A stretch of 42,869 bases of DNA, taken from contig CANJNY010000033.1 of assembly GCA_947475715.1 (NCBI GenBank), positions 1 to 42,869 on the forward strand, given 5' to 3'. Of the stretch, positions 33,956 to 38,669 are shown in pieces. Within the stretch, counting starts at the first letter, position 1. Every line of letters starts with the position of its first letter. Origin of the DNA: Prolixibacteraceae bacterium (GTDB lineage: Bacteria; Bacteroidota; Bacteroidia; Bacteroidales; Prolixibacteraceae). Both the position numbers and the translations under genes were made by a program. Under the pieces are notes generated by a model. The model saw only the letters and a program-made list of their open reading frames with translations, ran no database searches and was not told the DNA's origin.

Positions 33956-34381
33956 TTATAATAATTCGCCTTCGTCGAAATTTCGTCTTTCAGTGACATT
34001 TCCTTCGGCATCGGTAATAAATATATGTCTTACCTGGAAATGGTCACGGATAATAAATTCATAGCTGGCAGAACTATCAGATTTCTCTATAAAGATTGAA
34101 CTCATAATCTGACCGAATGTCTCCAGCTTTTCACGAATAGCAGGGTTTAGCATTTCTATTTTATAATTGGTCTCCGTTTTAAGCCATTTTCCCGATTTTT
34201 CGAATAAGGCGATCTGTTCAATCCCGTTTATCCGGAATATAACTTCGAAGTGGTGATCCTTCTCTTTGGACCACTCTATATTTGTAGCTTCAGGAAATAA
34301 AATACCAAATGATTTCAGCAGTGGTTGTCCGGGGGTATTGGGATTAATCCGAAATAGGTATTTTAGGATAAAATCTTTCAT
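33956..34381 (-). CDS. PepSY-like small protein encoded after an ECF sigma factor
   Basis: The 141-residue protein has no clear signal peptide or membrane helix. It contains two repeats of a PepSY-like pattern: FPEATNIEWSKEKDHHFEVI then GIEQIALFEKSGKWLKTET, and a second half SASYEFIIRDHFQVRHIFIT then DAEGNVTERRNF. This alternation of an acidic-aromatic strand and a ...DxxGxxxxxR end is found in Bacteroidota PepSY-like domain proteins, which are usually periplasmic. It lies 57 nt after a sigma gene on the same strand, so it may modulate that sigma factor or be its target, although it lacks the membrane anchor of a standard anti-sigma factor. Confidence 0.6.
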   Translation of the reverse strand: MKDFILKYLFRINPNTPGQPLLKSFGILFPEATNIEWSKEKDHHFEVIFRINGIEQIALFEKSGKWLKTETNYKIEMLNPAIREKLETFGQIMSSIFIEKSDSSASYEFIIRDHFQVRHIFITDAEGNVTERRNFDEGELL

Positions 34382-34438: not shown

Positions 34439-35005
34439 CTATCCATGATTATAGTGTTCCTTATAGAGGAATGCCACCCTGTCTCTGGCGCGCTTCAGTC
34501 TCATCTTGGTTGCACTTTCACTGATTTTTAAAGCGGTTTGAATATAAGCGATCGGTACATTATCGATATAATGCATGGTAAGGAGTGCTTTTTCTTCGGG
34601 ATGGATAAACTCAAGAATTTTCATAAGCCGTTCGCTGTTGATCTCCTTTTCATTCAATTCATCAATAACATCGGGAAGTTCGTGTGAACTATTCCAGTCG
34701 GGATAATTCATTTTCTTTTTGGTACGCAGATACTCTATACAATTATTATAAGTGATTGCATAAAGCCAGGTAGAGAAGTTGGCTTCGCCTCTAAAATCGG
34801 TCAGCCGTTCAAAGACTTTGCAAAAAATATCCTGTACGAATTCCTGTGCAAGTGTTTTATCTTTAAGTAAAGAGTAACATTTGTCGTAAACCTTATCAGA
34901 ATAGCGCTTATAGAGCACTTCAAAAAGGTTTGTATTGTGCTCTTGTTTAATAAGTCTGATGATTTCTTTATCTGAATAATCCTTTACAGAATTTTTTATT
35001 GCCAT
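34439..35005 (-). CDS. ECF-type RNA polymerase sigma factor
   Basis: The 188-residue protein has region 2 (LAQEFVQDIFCKVFERLTDF, then NFSTWLYAITYNNCIEYLRT) and region 4 (IHPEEKALLTMHYIDNVPIA, then YIQTALKISESATKMRLKRA). It is divergently transcribed from the abundant-type lipoprotein gene at 35172, with a 166-nt shared promoter region, and is followed by the PepSY-like gene. The placement raises the possibility that it responds to envelope state and controls the lipoprotein/L,D-transpeptidase cluster. That link is inference. Confidence 0.92.
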   Translation of the reverse strand: MAIKNSVKDYSDKEIIRLIKQEHNTNLFEVLYKRYSDKVYDKCYSLLKDKTLAQEFVQDIFCKVFERLTDFRGEANFSTWLYAITYNNCIEYLRTKKKMNYPDWNSSHELPDVIDELNEKEINSERLMKILEFIHPEEKALLTMHYIDNVPIAYIQTALKISESATKMRLKRARDRVAFLYKEHYNHG

Positions 35006-35171: not shown

Positions 35172-35789
35172 ATGAAAAAGGGATTATTAAAACTGGTTGC
35201 TTTTAGTGTTTTAGTTGTAACATTGGCTTCATGTGCCAAAGCTCCACAGGCTGAAATTGATGCTGCTAACGTAGCTATCGAAGCTGCTAAAACTGCAGGT
35301 GCTGATCGTTATGTACCTGAATCTTTCAATGCTGCTTCTGAAGCGTTAAAAACTGCTGTAACTGCAGTTGAAGAGCAGAATTCAAAATTTGCATTATTCC
35401 GTAACTATGATGCAGCTAAGACTACTCTTGCTTCTGTTAACACTCTTGCAGCTAAAGCTGTTGAAGAAACAACTGCAAAGAAAGAAGCTTTGAAAGCTGA
35501 AGTTACTGCTTCTTTAACCGAGATTGCAACTATCATCGCTGCTAACAAAGAATTGCTTGCTAAAGCCCCTAAGGGTAAAGAAGGCAAAGCTGCTGTTGAA
35601 GCTATTGGTCAGGAAATTGCTGCTGTTGAAACTGTAAGCACTGAAGTTACTGCTGGTCTTACCAACAACGAAGACATCTTGACACTTTCTGGCAAAATCA
35701 AACCAGCTGTTGAAAAAGCAAAAGCTATCAGCGCTGAATTGACCGAAGTTATCGACAAAGCAAAATCAAAGGGTGGCAAAAAAAAATAA
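35172..35789 (+). CDS. Alanine-rich lipoprotein with DUF4398-like module and C-terminal lysines
   Basis: The ATG at 35172 gives 205 residues. Residues 1-20 are a lipoprotein signal (VVTLASC with lipidated Cys21), so the mature protein is anchored to a membrane by its N-terminus. The rest is nearly all helical, Ala/Glu/Lys/Thr-rich and Cys-free, and ends IDKAKSKGGKKK. Residues 31-90 resemble DUF4398-type modules and align without gaps with residues 41-100 of the L,D-transpeptidase encoded next (shared ADxYxPE, QNxK, RNYxxAK). Codon use is strongly biased (Ala mostly GCT), as in abundant proteins, and a strong terminator follows. By analogy with the Braun lipoprotein, whose terminal Lys is joined to peptidoglycan by L,D-transpeptidases, this may be a structural envelope tether. 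That is inference. Confidence 0.8.
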   Translation: MKKGLLKLVAFSVLVVTLASCAKAPQAEIDAANVAIEAAKTAGADRYVPESFNAASEALKTAVTAVEEQNSKFALFRNYDAAKTTLASVNTLAAKAVEETTAKKEALKAEVTASLTEIATIIAANKELLAKAPKGKEGKAAVEAIGQEIAAVETVSTEVTAGLTNNEDILTLSGKIKPAVEKAKAISAELTEVIDKAKSKGGKKK

Positions 35790-35822
35790 GAAATAATATT
35801 TCTTAAACTTTAAAAAAAGATA

Positions 35823-35854
35823 AACCCCCGGAAGTTTTTCCGGGGGTTCTTTTT
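35823..35854 (+). terminator. Strong intrinsic terminator after the lipoprotein gene
   Basis: AACCCCCGGAA and TTCCGGGGGTT form a perfect 11-bp stem with a GTTT loop, followed by CTTTTT. It isolates the lipoprotein transcript from the downstream transpeptidase operon. Confidence 0.93.
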
Positions 35855-35963
35855 GAAATTAATTTTGGGAATTTCCCGATAATTTAATCCAAAGCAATCA
35901 TATTTTTCGGTTCCTTTGTGAACTGCAATGTAGCTTAGAATTTTAGGAATTTATCTTGTACGA

Positions 35964-37079
35964 ATGAAACTTGGTTGGAAAAAGAGATTATTTATTAGTG
36001 TTGGAATTTTAGGTTCAATTTTTATAATCGTCTATATGGTGTTGATCTTGACAATGGACAAGCCACCCTTAGCCGAATTTAAAACTTGTCAACAGGTCCT
36101 GGCCAAAGCCAAACGAGCCAATGCAGATGTCTATTCTCCCGAATATTACAGTGCTGCAGACCGGAAGTATCAGGCGGCCCTCATTGAATGGAAGATTCAA
36201 AATGAGAAGATTTTCTTTCAAAGAAATTATACAAAGGCTAAAGAGCAGATCCTTATAGCCACTTTAAAGGCTGAAGAAGCGAATGCCTCATCAGGTGTAA
36301 ATAGGAATTCATTAAAGATGAAATATTTGCAGGAGGTTGAGCTGTTGAAGCTGAAACTTGATAATTACCATGATGTGTTTATTCACCTACCCCTTAAGGT
36401 GAATGTCCGAAAGAATTATGAGTTTGGAAAACTCTCCCTTGAGCAGGGACTAAATGCTTTTAGTAGCGGAGATATCATGCAGGCTACAAAAAGATTAAAT
36501 GAAGGAAAGCTTAAAATTGGTATCGCCGATAAAGAGGTTAATGCACTATTAAAAGAGTATTTCGGCAATTTTTCGAAATGGCAAAATTGGTGTTCGGCTA
36601 CAATTCGAATGTCGGAACAAAATAACGGATATGCTTTCATTGTTGATAAATTAAAACATAAGGGGTATCTCTATTTTAAGGGCAAATTAAACAAAGAGTT
36701 TGATGTCGAATTTGGCAGAAACTGGATAGGTAACAAATATTATGCCGGGGATAAGGCAACTCCTGAAGGTTTGTACCGGGTAATTAAGAAAAAAGGTAGT
36801 GGTGATTCAAAATATTACAAAGCATTGCTGATAAATTATCCCAATGATGAAGATTATGCTTCATTTAACAGCAAAAAAAGACAGGGACTTATTTCAAAAA
36901 ATAGCCGGATTGGAGGTTTAATAGAGATACATGGAGATGGCGGAAAAGGGGCTGACTGGACCAGCGGTTGTATTGCACTCTCAAATTCAGAGATGGATGA
37001 ACTGTTTAGTATAACCCCCATAGGTACTCCGGTAACAATCATTGGTTCAAGGGTTTCGCTTGCTGAATTACTAAATTAA
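35964..37079 (+). CDS. Membrane-anchored L,D-transpeptidase with lipoprotein-like N-terminal module
   Basis: The 371-residue protein has a membrane anchor (LFISVGILGSIFIIVYMVLI, about 9-28) and a helical module (about 37-205) homologous to the lipoprotein encoded upstream. A C-terminal YkuD domain (about 225-365) carries the catalytic motif with His323 (EIHGDGG) and Cys336 (DWTSGCIALSN). L,D-transpeptidases join stem peptides of peptidoglycan or attach lipoproteins to diaminopimelate, outside the inner membrane. The TPEGLYRV segment before the motif is typical of the family. This gene heads an operon with a second transpeptidase (11-nt gap) and a single-span protein (10-nt gap). The shared module suggests that the enzyme recognises or co-assembles with the lipoprotein. 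Confidence 0.9.
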   Translation: MKLGWKKRLFISVGILGSIFIIVYMVLILTMDKPPLAEFKTCQQVLAKAKRANADVYSPEYYSAADRKYQAALIEWKIQNEKIFFQRNYTKAKEQILIATLKAEEANASSGVNRNSLKMKYLQEVELLKLKLDNYHDVFIHLPLKVNVRKNYEFGKLSLEQGLNAFSSGDIMQATKRLNEGKLKIGIADKEVNALLKEYFGNFSKWQNWCSATIRMSEQNNGYAFIVDKLKHKGYLYFKGKLNKEFDVEFGRNWIGNKYYAGDKATPEGLYRVIKKKGSGDSKYYKALLINYPNDEDYASFNSKKRQGLISKNSRIGGLIEIHGDGGKGADWTSGCIALSNSEMDELFSITPIGTPVTIIGSRVSLAELLN

Positions 37080-37090
37080 ATTTCAAAATA

Positions 37091-37786
37091 ATGGAGATTG
37101 AACAAAAACAAAATAGGGGATTCCTTAATACTGTTAAATGGATCATTCCGGTATCGCTTCTCTCTTTATCGGTTTTGATGATTATTTTTAATCCCGATTT
37201 TCAGGATAGTGCCTTTAAGGTAAAGAGCAAGTTCTCAACTCCCCCGGCTTATGTTGGAAAATCCGGGGATGCAATCGAAAGACTCGCAGTTCGATCGGCC
37301 AGGAATATCAGTGTAATTGAAGAAAAGCTGAACACGTTAAAGCCTGTAAAGCCCTATATTGTGGTTAATACATCCGAAAATCGTTTTTCACTTCGAAATA
37401 TCGACGGTGATACCATACGCACAGGAGTTTGTTCTACTGGTAAAAATGAATTGCTGATCGCGGGTAATAAACGAATTATCTTTAAAACCCCAAAAGGGAT
37501 CTTCACGGTAAGAAATAAACAGCAAAATCGTCCCTGGATTAAACCTGACTGGGCATTCATTGAAGATGGATTACCGATCCCTTCTGCCAGATCCGCTGAA
37601 CGGATAGATTACAGTACGTTAGGCGATTATGCCCTTGAGATTGGGAACGGTTATATGCTCCATGGTACTCTTTATCAACGATTTCTTGGGCTTCCAGTTA
37701 CTCATGGTTGTGTTCGGCTTGGAGATAAAGATCTCGAAGTGGTCTATAATACGTTGAGCAAAGGTTCGAAAGTGTATATTTATTAA
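37091..37786 (+). CDS. Second L,D-transpeptidase (YkuD domain)
   Basis: The 231-residue protein has an N-terminal membrane anchor (WIIPVSLLSLSVLMIIF, about 17-33) and a YkuD catalytic domain (about 95-231). The domain starts IVVNTSENRFSLRNIDGDTI, continues with KTPKGIFTVRNK, and has His191 (MLHGTLYQ) and the catalytic THGCVRL with His205 and Cys207. This is a classic compact L,D-transpeptidase, different from the upstream paralogue, which has an SGCIAL motif and a large extra module. Two enzymes in one operon could divide the work between cross-linking and protein attachment. It lies between the first transpeptidase and a membrane protein gene. Confidence 0.92.
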   Translation: MEIEQKQNRGFLNTVKWIIPVSLLSLSVLMIIFNPDFQDSAFKVKSKFSTPPAYVGKSGDAIERLAVRSARNISVIEEKLNTLKPVKPYIVVNTSENRFSLRNIDGDTIRTGVCSTGKNELLIAGNKRIIFKTPKGIFTVRNKQQNRPWIKPDWAFIEDGLPIPSARSAERIDYSTLGDYALEIGNGYMLHGTLYQRFLGLPVTHGCVRLGDKDLEVVYNTLSKGSKVYIY

Positions 37787-37796
37787 CGATTTAAAA

Positions 37797-38669
37797 ATGA
37801 AAAATAAAATAGCATTTTGGATCATTACGTTGATTCTTATCATGTTGGTTGTCTTTATATCCGTAGTCACTGTTATTCAACCGGTATTTACCAAAAATTC
37901 GCTTCCTAAGGCAGTCGTCCGGAGTTCTGATCAAAAGGAAAAGGTCGCTAAAGATAAGCAGGCTAAAGCAGATAAGGATAAAGTGGCAAAAGCAGACGTT
38001 ATTAATTCGTCAGATGACACGGTCTCCTCCTCTGATGGGTCAACCACTTCTAATTTAAATATAAATAAGCTGGTTGAACTCAGGCGAAAGGAGATATTAT
38101 TTCATTCCCGGTTTGAACTGGCAAGTGACGATTCTACCTATTTGATCCTTGATTTAATCAATAATACGGCTGTTCTGGAATTAAAGGGAATTGTGCTGCA
38201 TGAATGTAAAATTATACATTCGGAAGTGAGTAATTCATTTAAAAGTTATCCAATCGATGCATTACTGAATTGGATGTCTGAGCCATTTGTATTAAAGAAT
38301 GTAGAGTCTACAATACCAAAGATTACTTTTATCGAAAAAATAGCGCCCAAAGATACGCTGGAGGCCAATAAAATGGTAACTGAGCCTAAGGAGATAAAAC
38401 TGGAAGATGTATTTATCGTAATGGATTTTGAGCGCAACTTAAGAGTGGTTATTTCTCAGAGCGAAGAACCTGATCCTGATGGTAAGAAGATTATTACTAA
38501 TCTTAGACGGAAATATGATAAAATAGAGATTTCAAGATCAATAAAGGCATTGACTAAATTTAACCGTGAGCCTGTCAAACCACAAATTGAGATTGTTCTT
38601 TCAAAATCGAATGCAACTATTCTGTATAAAGCACTTCCTTTCAATCCCAGGATGATATTGCGTTTGTAA
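37797..38669 (+). CDS. Single-span membrane protein of unknown function in the transpeptidase operon
   Basis: The 290-residue product has one N-terminal membrane helix (IAFWIITLILIMLVVFISVV, about 5-24). A linker rich in Lys, Ala and Asp follows (residues about 46-67, for example KDKQAKADKDKVAKAD), then a Ser/Thr-rich stretch and a soluble domain from about 90 on that I do not recognise (ILFHSRFELASDDSTYLILD, later KLEDVFIVMDFERNLRVVIS). The Lys/Ala linker resembles periplasm-spanning linkers of proteins that contact peptidoglycan. Its gene is 10 nt after the second transpeptidase gene and is followed by a good terminator, so the three are one operon. I suggest a scaffold or regulator of the transpeptidases, without direct evidence. 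Confidence 0.7.
   Translation: MKNKIAFWIITLILIMLVVFISVVTVIQPVFTKNSLPKAVVRSSDQKEKVAKDKQAKADKDKVAKADVINSSDDTVSSSDGSTTSNLNINKLVELRRKEILFHSRFELASDDSTYLILDLINNTAVLELKGIVLHECKIIHSEVSNSFKSYPIDALLNWMSEPFVLKNVESTIPKITFIEKIAPKDTLEANKMVTEPKEIKLEDVFIVMDFERNLRVVISQSEEPDPDGKKIITNLRRKYDKIEISRSIKALTKFNREPVKPQIEIVLSKSNATILYKALPFNPRMILRL

Follow-up and report, generated by a model that had tools for sequence, protein, structure and literature searches.

Do members of the Bacteroidota have their own way of tying the outer membrane to the cell wall? The question is raised by a 42,869-nucleotide stretch of DNA (the window) from a Prolixibacteraceae bacterium (assembly GCA_947475715.1, contig CANJNY010000033.1), in which a gene for an Ala-rich helical lipoprotein (gene 1) is followed by genes for two YkuD-family proteins (genes 2 and 3) and a single-span protein (gene 4). 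In Escherichia coli, L,D-transpeptidases join the C-terminal Lys of the lipoprotein Lpp to diaminopimelate, and an earlier reading of the window's letters (the original prediction) had proposed an equivalent tether, with genes 2 and 3 both as L,D-transpeptidases and gene 4 as a scaffold. Our analysis suggests that many Bacteroidota carry these genes as a fixed four-gene set, which is probably an unrecognised way to coordinate outer membrane with cell wall. We consider it quite likely that this envelope module acts at the interface between outer membrane and peptidoglycan. Whether it is an old, co-inherited module that links or coordinates the two layers, with enzymes that attach and release or trim, seems to us about evenly balanced.

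The four genes are inherited as a unit

The open reading frames (ORFs) lie consecutively on the + strand and encode the 205-residue lipoprotein (35172..35789), YkuD proteins of 371 residues (gene 2; 35964..37079) and 231 residues (gene 3; 37091..37786), and the 290-residue single-span protein (gene 4; 37797..38669), with gaps of 11 bp between genes 2 and 3 and 10 bp between genes 3 and 4. All four were recovered where they had been placed; the lipoprotein has the lipobox LASC with Cys21 and ends in GGKKK. The gene order proved to be kept in relatives. Among the best 80 of 409 gene 2 relatives, taken from a scan of one-genome-per-species contigs, 79 of 80 loci had the lipoprotein gene directly upstream of gene 2, every one of the 80 had gene 3 downstream, and gene 4 was there in 79. 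Both exceptions were at contig ends; in the lipoprotein case the contig begins within the gene.

Presence and absence followed the same pattern. Strong matches to the lipoprotein and to gene 2 occurred side by side in the same 24 of 61 genomes (the bacterium's own and 60 relatives), and one extra weak match to each was seen in different genomes; all 24 also had gene 3, and gene 4 was detected in each of them by profile and in 23 by BLASTP. In a sample of 392 genomes from the phylum, the lipoprotein (E<1e-30), full-length gene 2 and gene 3 (E<1e-10) were found in the identical nine genomes, and none of them at that strength in the other 383, so that the expected co-occurrence of the lipoprotein with transpeptidase-fold genes was all-or-none for the three genes tested. 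Two genomes of this sample held weak lipoprotein matches (~1e-4 and ~1e-3) without gene 2. Among 295 genomes of the order, full-length gene 2 was found in 31, and the lipoprotein gene adjoined it in 31 of 31. The module is thus patchy, yet it is inherited as a unit. The module was also present in a second class of Bacteroidota (a class other than that of the window); gene 4 was included in all five further loci of that class, and in one more of the window's own. Two contigs titled candidate division KSB1, the only KSB1 loci seen, likewise carried the module with gene 4. Titles among the loci of close relatives include uncultured Bacteroidia bacterium, Prolixibacteraceae bacterium and Mariniphaga sp., and the isolate Maribellus sp. 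YY47 (L151) has the module too. Conservation on this scale goes beyond what the original prediction could have known.

Gene 2 combines a lipoprotein-like domain with a probable hydrolase site

Cys21 of the lipobox (35232..35234, + strand), the residue predicted to carry the lipid and to hold the protein in the outer membrane, was invariant in the lipoprotein alignment. At E up to 1, the Lpp domain (PF04728) was matched neither by the lipoprotein nor anywhere in the genome, and homology to Lpp was therefore rejected; the protein also has about 185 residues here, against 58 in Lpp. DUF4398 (PF14346), a family of unknown function, weakly matched 10 of 16 lipoproteins (best 3.1e-5), the window lipoprotein scoring 17 bits, below the Pfam cut-off of 27.9. 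The literature that we found on DUF4398 was unrelated work only, and a PDB profile search with the lipoprotein returned nothing convincing.

A relationship overlooked in the earlier reading is that between the lipoprotein and the N-terminal part of gene 2 (residues 26-193; 36039..36542, + strand), which are homologous by hhalign (98.3 percent, E 1.3e-14, 166 columns) and by BLASTP between the two window proteins alone (2e-10). The YkuD catalytic domain of gene 2 (36630..37040, + strand) scored 63.8 bits in Pfam against a cut-off of 23.4 (E 3.4e-17), and the structure model of this protein, which is predicted to be anchored in the inner membrane, had a predicted local distance difference test score (pLDDT) of 91.7. 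The His/Cys pair expected of a YkuD protein was present (H323, 36930-36932; C336, 36969-36971). The residue two positions after the catalytic Cys (A338, 36975-36977) lies in a motif, GC[VI][AS], that was found in 89 of 89 gene 2 sequences, with Ala at this position in 88, Ser in one and Arg in none. This position is described as Arg in transpeptidases and Ala in DpaA, and as lacking Arg in the L,D-carboxypeptidases treated in the same texts (PMC8263019, PMC10653827).

Further features point the same way as the motif. Across 69 rows K258 was invariant and Y284 conserved in at least 90 percent, and they aligned to K83 and Y109 of the E. coli amidase DpaA (YafK, LdtF; PDB 8IKR), whose Ala mutants are reported to retain 0 and 0.7 percent activity (PMC10653827). 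The gene 2 model has a helix (295-306) between the NYPN-motif strand and the catalytic His, and a comparable helix in the L3 loop is described for DpaA and the carboxypeptidases (PMC10653827). The best PDB profile matches were DpaA, Bd1075, Csd6 and Pgp2, all hydrolases according to the identities given for these structures in PMC10653827 and PMC8938487, and Bd1075 and DpaA ranked first in a fold search. A 35-row tree separated DpaA, a DpaA-like protein of the same genome and all gene 2 rows from LdtA-E and all gene 3 rows (99/97), and DpaA was the best NCBIfam match in 69 of 69 gene 2 rows. Judged by these sequence features, gene 2 is rather more likely a hydrolase than a transpeptidase. Of the two L,D-transpeptidases originally proposed, gene 3 holds as a classical one, whereas gene 2 lacks the transpeptidase Arg in 89 of 89 sequences and groups with hydrolases.

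Several observations count against so neat an assignment. The B. subtilis transpeptidase YkuD came third in the fold search (6.4e-7 against 6.2e-8), the tree tool flagged meeting long branches in the 35-row tree, and the nearest catalytic relatives of gene 2 are uncharacterised Bacteroidota YkuD proteins. Gene 2 scored 33.1 bits against the DpaA equivalog cut-off of 365 in NCBIfam and is no DpaA orthologue; a DpaA-like gene distinct from it lies elsewhere in the genome (L199:3579-4352, contig C58; 257 residues, motif IHGSCISSGCLAM), and in the tree its product pairs with E. coli DpaA. True orthology to DpaA was rejected on these last two grounds. Gene 2 shares with DpaA the Ala after the Cys, the two equivalents of K83 and Y109, the loop helix and the side of the tree, but differs in its membrane anchor and lipoprotein-like stalk, in its far lower score, and in an EIHG motif (89 of 89) that has Glu where DpaA has Met133 and Csd6 has Trp158. 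With L,D-carboxypeptidases such as Csd6, Pgp2 and Bd1075 it shares a YkuD fold without the transpeptidase Arg as well as the profile and fold matches. For the aromatic D-Ala pocket of the Csd6 type, however, the position of Trp158 holds Glu in 89 of 89 sequences, which led us to reject a Csd6-type carboxypeptidase, and no NTF2 domain was seen in the gene 2 model.

Many other Bacteroidota have short YkuD proteins without the stalk (L175-L195); all 19 that were read carry the same W-T-x-G-C-[VI]-[AS] motif as gene 2, and by this motif they are an uncharacterised YkuD group on the hydrolase side. To our knowledge, no activity has been assigned to any of them. Single stop codons were seen inside gene-2-like YkuD matches of four genomes (G142, G236, G379 and G126), which may reflect pseudogenes or errors of assembly.

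Gene 3 is a classical transpeptidase and gene 4 may be a degenerate one

Gene 3, likewise predicted to be anchored in the inner membrane, scored 71.2 bits against the Pfam YkuD cut-off of 23.4 (E 1.8e-19). The motif THGC[VI]R was found in 80 of 80 complete sequences and [ST]HGC[VI]R in five further loci, four of them of the second class, and gene 3 groups with LdtA/B/C/E in the tree. By sequence it is a classical L,D-transpeptidase, with C207 at 37709-37711 and R209 at 37715-37717. The original choice of catalytic residues needs one correction here, since H205 is the His of THGC; the catalytic His should be H191 (37661-37663) of the invariant HGT, which we take to be the canonical one.

A transpeptidase in this position could act on something other than the lipoprotein. 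YkuD enzymes elsewhere are described as attaching outer-membrane proteins by an N-terminal Gly or Ala (PMC12729407). The present enzymes might form 3-3 cross-links or attach beta-barrel proteins, with the lipoprotein no more than a co-regulated envelope protein. Strict co-inheritance and the domain shared by the lipoprotein and gene 2 argue against this, and we regard it as very unlikely.

Gene 4 had been proposed as a scaffold with a Lys/Ala linker. The linker is present and predicted to be disordered, but it was not seen in orthologues beyond close relatives, and we rejected it as a scaffold feature. No HGC was found in 69 of 69 members of the family; no Pfam match was common to more than six of the 69, and the Pfam and PDB profile searches were unconvincing. 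The gene 4 model (pLDDT 81.7) gave 50 YkuD-family proteins among the 50 matches listed by Foldseek, L,D-transpeptidases first, although these matches were weak (best E 6.8e-3, template modelling score up to 0.27 of the query). Alignment of the gene 4 domain with YkuD by hhalign gave E 0.008, compared with 0.11-0.76 for six shuffles; a full-length alignment gave E 3.9e-5 and covers the N-terminal part. These comparisons suggest that gene 4 is probably a pseudo-transpeptidase with a degenerate YkuD fold that has no catalytic Cys.

The lipoprotein has an invariant loop and a variable C-terminal residue

To locate conserved lysines we compared 88 lipoproteins, made up of 79 from the 80 loci (L136 has none), the window protein and eight from the phylum sample, with L068 and L069 near-identical; a held-out set of 19 consisted of 27 order-level sequences minus eight repeats of earlier ones. 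Five residues were identical in all 88 (L128, P133, G135, K136 and E189, precursor numbering). Three of these form a P-x-G-K loop, which in the window is APKGKEG (35565..35585, + strand) between two long helices, and which was found in 88 of 88 lipoproteins, in 19 of 19 held-out ones and in all six of a further set (L024-L029). The copy of the domain in gene 2 has P-x-G-K in one of 89 sequences, which makes the loop a feature of the lipoprotein. In the hhalign profile alignment P133 pairs with P143 of gene 2, and in the gene 2 model P143 lies at a turn, where a helix of 50 residues (90-139) gives way to a return helix (146-167). A helix of 50 residues is ~75 Å long, near the outer membrane-peptidoglycan distance of roughly 85 Å quoted for E. 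coli (PMC12729407). By homology to this model, the lipoprotein may be a spacer in the form of a helical hairpin that is anchored in the outer membrane and has the P-x-G-K loop as its presumed distal tip.

The C-terminus behaved differently from what had been expected. The window lipoprotein ends in Lys-Lys-Lys (35778..35786, + strand), and the original prediction had named orthologues without a conserved C-terminal Lys as evidence against itself. The last residue was Lys in 58 of 88 lipoproteins (Arg in 13, Phe in seven, Ser in six, others in four) and in nine of 19 held-out ones (Arg in eight, Ile and Asn in one each), and among the further six it was Lys in four, Arg in one and Ser in one. 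On a tree of 87 lipoproteins there were at least 13 changes between Lys and another residue at this position. A strictly conserved C-terminal Lys was thus rejected. A basic ending is common nonetheless. In 79 distinct tails outside the second class, a group that also includes the KSB1-titled bacteria, 91 percent had Lys or Arg as the next-to-last residue and 71 percent had Lys as the last, compared with a terminal Lys in 12.7 percent of 473 other long ORFs of the same loci.

The model first proposed, an equivalent of Braun's lipoprotein that both enzymes would attach through its C-terminal Lys, draws on this enrichment of terminal Lys, and the attached Dickeya proteins Lpp and OutB are likewise reported to end in Lys-Lys (PMC12274547). 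Against it stand the counts above with their repeated changes of state, the absence of the transpeptidase Arg from gene 2, and the predicted position of the C-terminus, which by homology to the gene 2 model would follow the return helices rather than lie at the hairpin tip. We now regard this exact model as quite unlikely. What holds of the Braun-like tether is the gene order, the co-inheritance and the apparent high expression, while the conserved terminal Lys and gene 2 as a transpeptidase do not.

Part of the tail evidence weighs against covalent attachment as such. Besides the missing conservation of the last residue, three second-class species of one family (L072-L074) lack Lys throughout the final 10 residues, and outside the second class Arg is enriched at the next-to-last position compared with the body of the protein (Lys to Arg 54:18 there and 1554:183 in the body, p 7e-4, the rows being related; for the last position p 0.07, with the same relatedness), which suggests that the tail contributes charge rather than an amine. 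These data suit a different role, in which the lipoprotein is a non-covalent scaffold or activator whose tail and loop bind peptidoglycan and whose shared domain, acting from the outer membrane, brings the YkuD enzyme into position or activates it, so that stem peptides are trimmed or cross-linked. The helical domain common to the lipoprotein and gene 2 fits this role, as do tails that keep positive charge rather than Lys, and second-class tails that end in Ser or Arg while both active sites are intact. The invariant loop Lys, as another possible acceptor, speaks against it, and so does the expression of the lipoprotein described below. We see the scaffold as a real but minority possibility.

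A Lys lay within the last six residues in 81 of 81 tails outside the second class and in none of seven within it, so that attachment through a non-terminal tail Lys stays conceivable in the former group. Non-terminal acceptor lysines are described for the gammaproteobacterial outer-membrane proteins LimB27 of Coxiella (Lys21) and Lpg1810 of Legionella (Lys-Thr), which are tied by a Lys that is not the last residue (PMC12729407); the likeness is one of description, and by this analogy the present lipoprotein might be tethered through another Lys. A tail Lys as the sole possible acceptor was rejected, since no tail column is Lys throughout and the near-end Lys (mature 176) is missing in three species. 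The tails also vary in form. Several lipoproteins (L099, L100, L129, L138, L139, L152 and L158) carry long tails of Ala-Lys-Pro repeats yet finish with Lys-Lys, and seven (L109, L111, L118, L127, L128, L135 and L153), in two separate places of the tree, end in Lys/Arg-Ile-Lys/Arg-Phe.

The lipoprotein appears to be made in excess of the enzymes

The bias towards GCT codons noted earlier in the lipoprotein gene is real (32 of 44 Ala codons). Its codon adaptation of 0.834 was the highest of 32 window ORFs and exceeded all 26 reference ORFs of the ribosomal-protein region (0.66-0.80), a few of which do not encode ribosomal proteins; in 72 of 79 related loci the GCT share of Ala codons was likewise higher in the lipoprotein gene than in gene 2. 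By codon use, the lipoprotein is apparently highly expressed, as its proposed abundance requires. The strong terminator reported after the gene was also found, as a hairpin of 11 pairs (seven G-C) followed by a T-run (35823..35848, given on the + strand, the sequence working in either direction). A scan of the window gave three such sites against 2.8 expected in shuffles, a count that proves nothing by itself. In 49 of 79 related loci, a terminator-like hairpin lies in the corresponding gap (custom pattern, no shuffle control), and the stem length together with these similar hairpins makes the one in the window credible. A promoter scan was at chance, with 12 found against 11.9 expected.

A hairpin at this position suggests that the enzymes are made at a much lower level than the lipoprotein. 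Such a ratio, much lipoprotein and little enzyme, fits a structural part better than a stoichiometric activator, and an apparent expression far above that of the enzymes is more than the scaffold or activator discussed above would need.

A model for the module and its relation to known systems

The reading of the four genes as a module that links or coordinates the two layers rests on all-or-none co-inheritance, the lipoprotein-like stalk of gene 2, the active-site classes, codon use and the invariant loop K136. In this model the lipoprotein would be a helical-hairpin spacer held in the outer membrane, and its P-x-G-K loop would face away from the lipid anchor, toward the peptidoglycan. Gene 3 would bond a lipoprotein Lys, either K136 of the loop or one of the basic tail, to diaminopimelate. 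Gene 2 would dock on the lipoprotein via the shared domain and cut the bond or trim stem peptides, and gene 4 would serve as a non-catalytic partner of gene 3. Judging from sequence, we hold covalent attachment of the lipoprotein itself to peptidoglycan to be possible, with chances slightly below even, and attachment by the loop Lys rather than the tail to be rather unlikely. A stronger version is a dedicated write-and-erase tether outside the Lpp lineage, in which gene 3 bonds K136 at the hairpin tip, gene 2, with its captured substrate domain, reaches in between the lipoproteins from the inner membrane, where it seeks out and cuts the bonds, and the dead transpeptidase gene 4 regulates; as a whole this is unlikely. 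We infer the location of the lipoprotein, its abundance, the direction of each reaction, the docking and the covalent link from the combination of features described.

The module resembles E. coli Lpp with LdtA, LdtB and LdtC in having an abundant helical lipoprotein with a basic C-terminus and a classical GC[VI]R transpeptidase, and E. coli lpp also adjoins an L,D-transpeptidase gene, ldtE, on the opposite strand. It differs in that the C-terminal Lys is variable while an internal loop is invariant, and in that one enzyme carries a copy of the lipoprotein domain. DpaA-like proteins are described in many diderms without Lpp, Bacteroidetes included, and a different purpose there has been suggested (PMC8263019). 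The module is a concrete candidate for such a role, as a hydrolase-type YkuD enzyme is genetically locked to a specific abundant lipoprotein of which it carries a copy. If the model is true, lipoprotein-based linkage of outer membrane and peptidoglycan, whether covalent or managed by enzymes, also exists outside the Lpp lineage, and the presence of a copy of the presumed substrate within the enzyme itself would represent an unusual docking principle; a write-and-erase tether, if real, would give hydrolase-type YkuD enzymes a natural partner in bacteria without Lpp. The main text of a December 2025 review on L,D-transpeptidases (PMC12729407) contains no words beginning with Bacteroid or Flavobact. 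Our literature search found no description of the locus, with most subscription journals outside its coverage, so that this absence is no proof.

A sigma factor gene lies divergently beside the locus

Upstream of the lipoprotein gene, on the - strand, the window encodes a divergent extracytoplasmic function (ECF) sigma factor (34439..35005; Sigma70_r2, 6.4e-14) and, behind it, a protein of 141 residues (33956..34381) that matched no Pfam family at E up to 1. In 31 loci gene 1 has a divergent homologue of the sigma factor next to it; 65 loci extend >1.5 kb upstream, and these account for 28 of the 31. The sigma factor is therefore a possible regulator, and envelope-stress control of the module is conceivable. 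The 141-residue protein accompanied the sigma factor in 30 loci, and homologues of the two reach down to roughly 50 and 30 percent identity, respectively.

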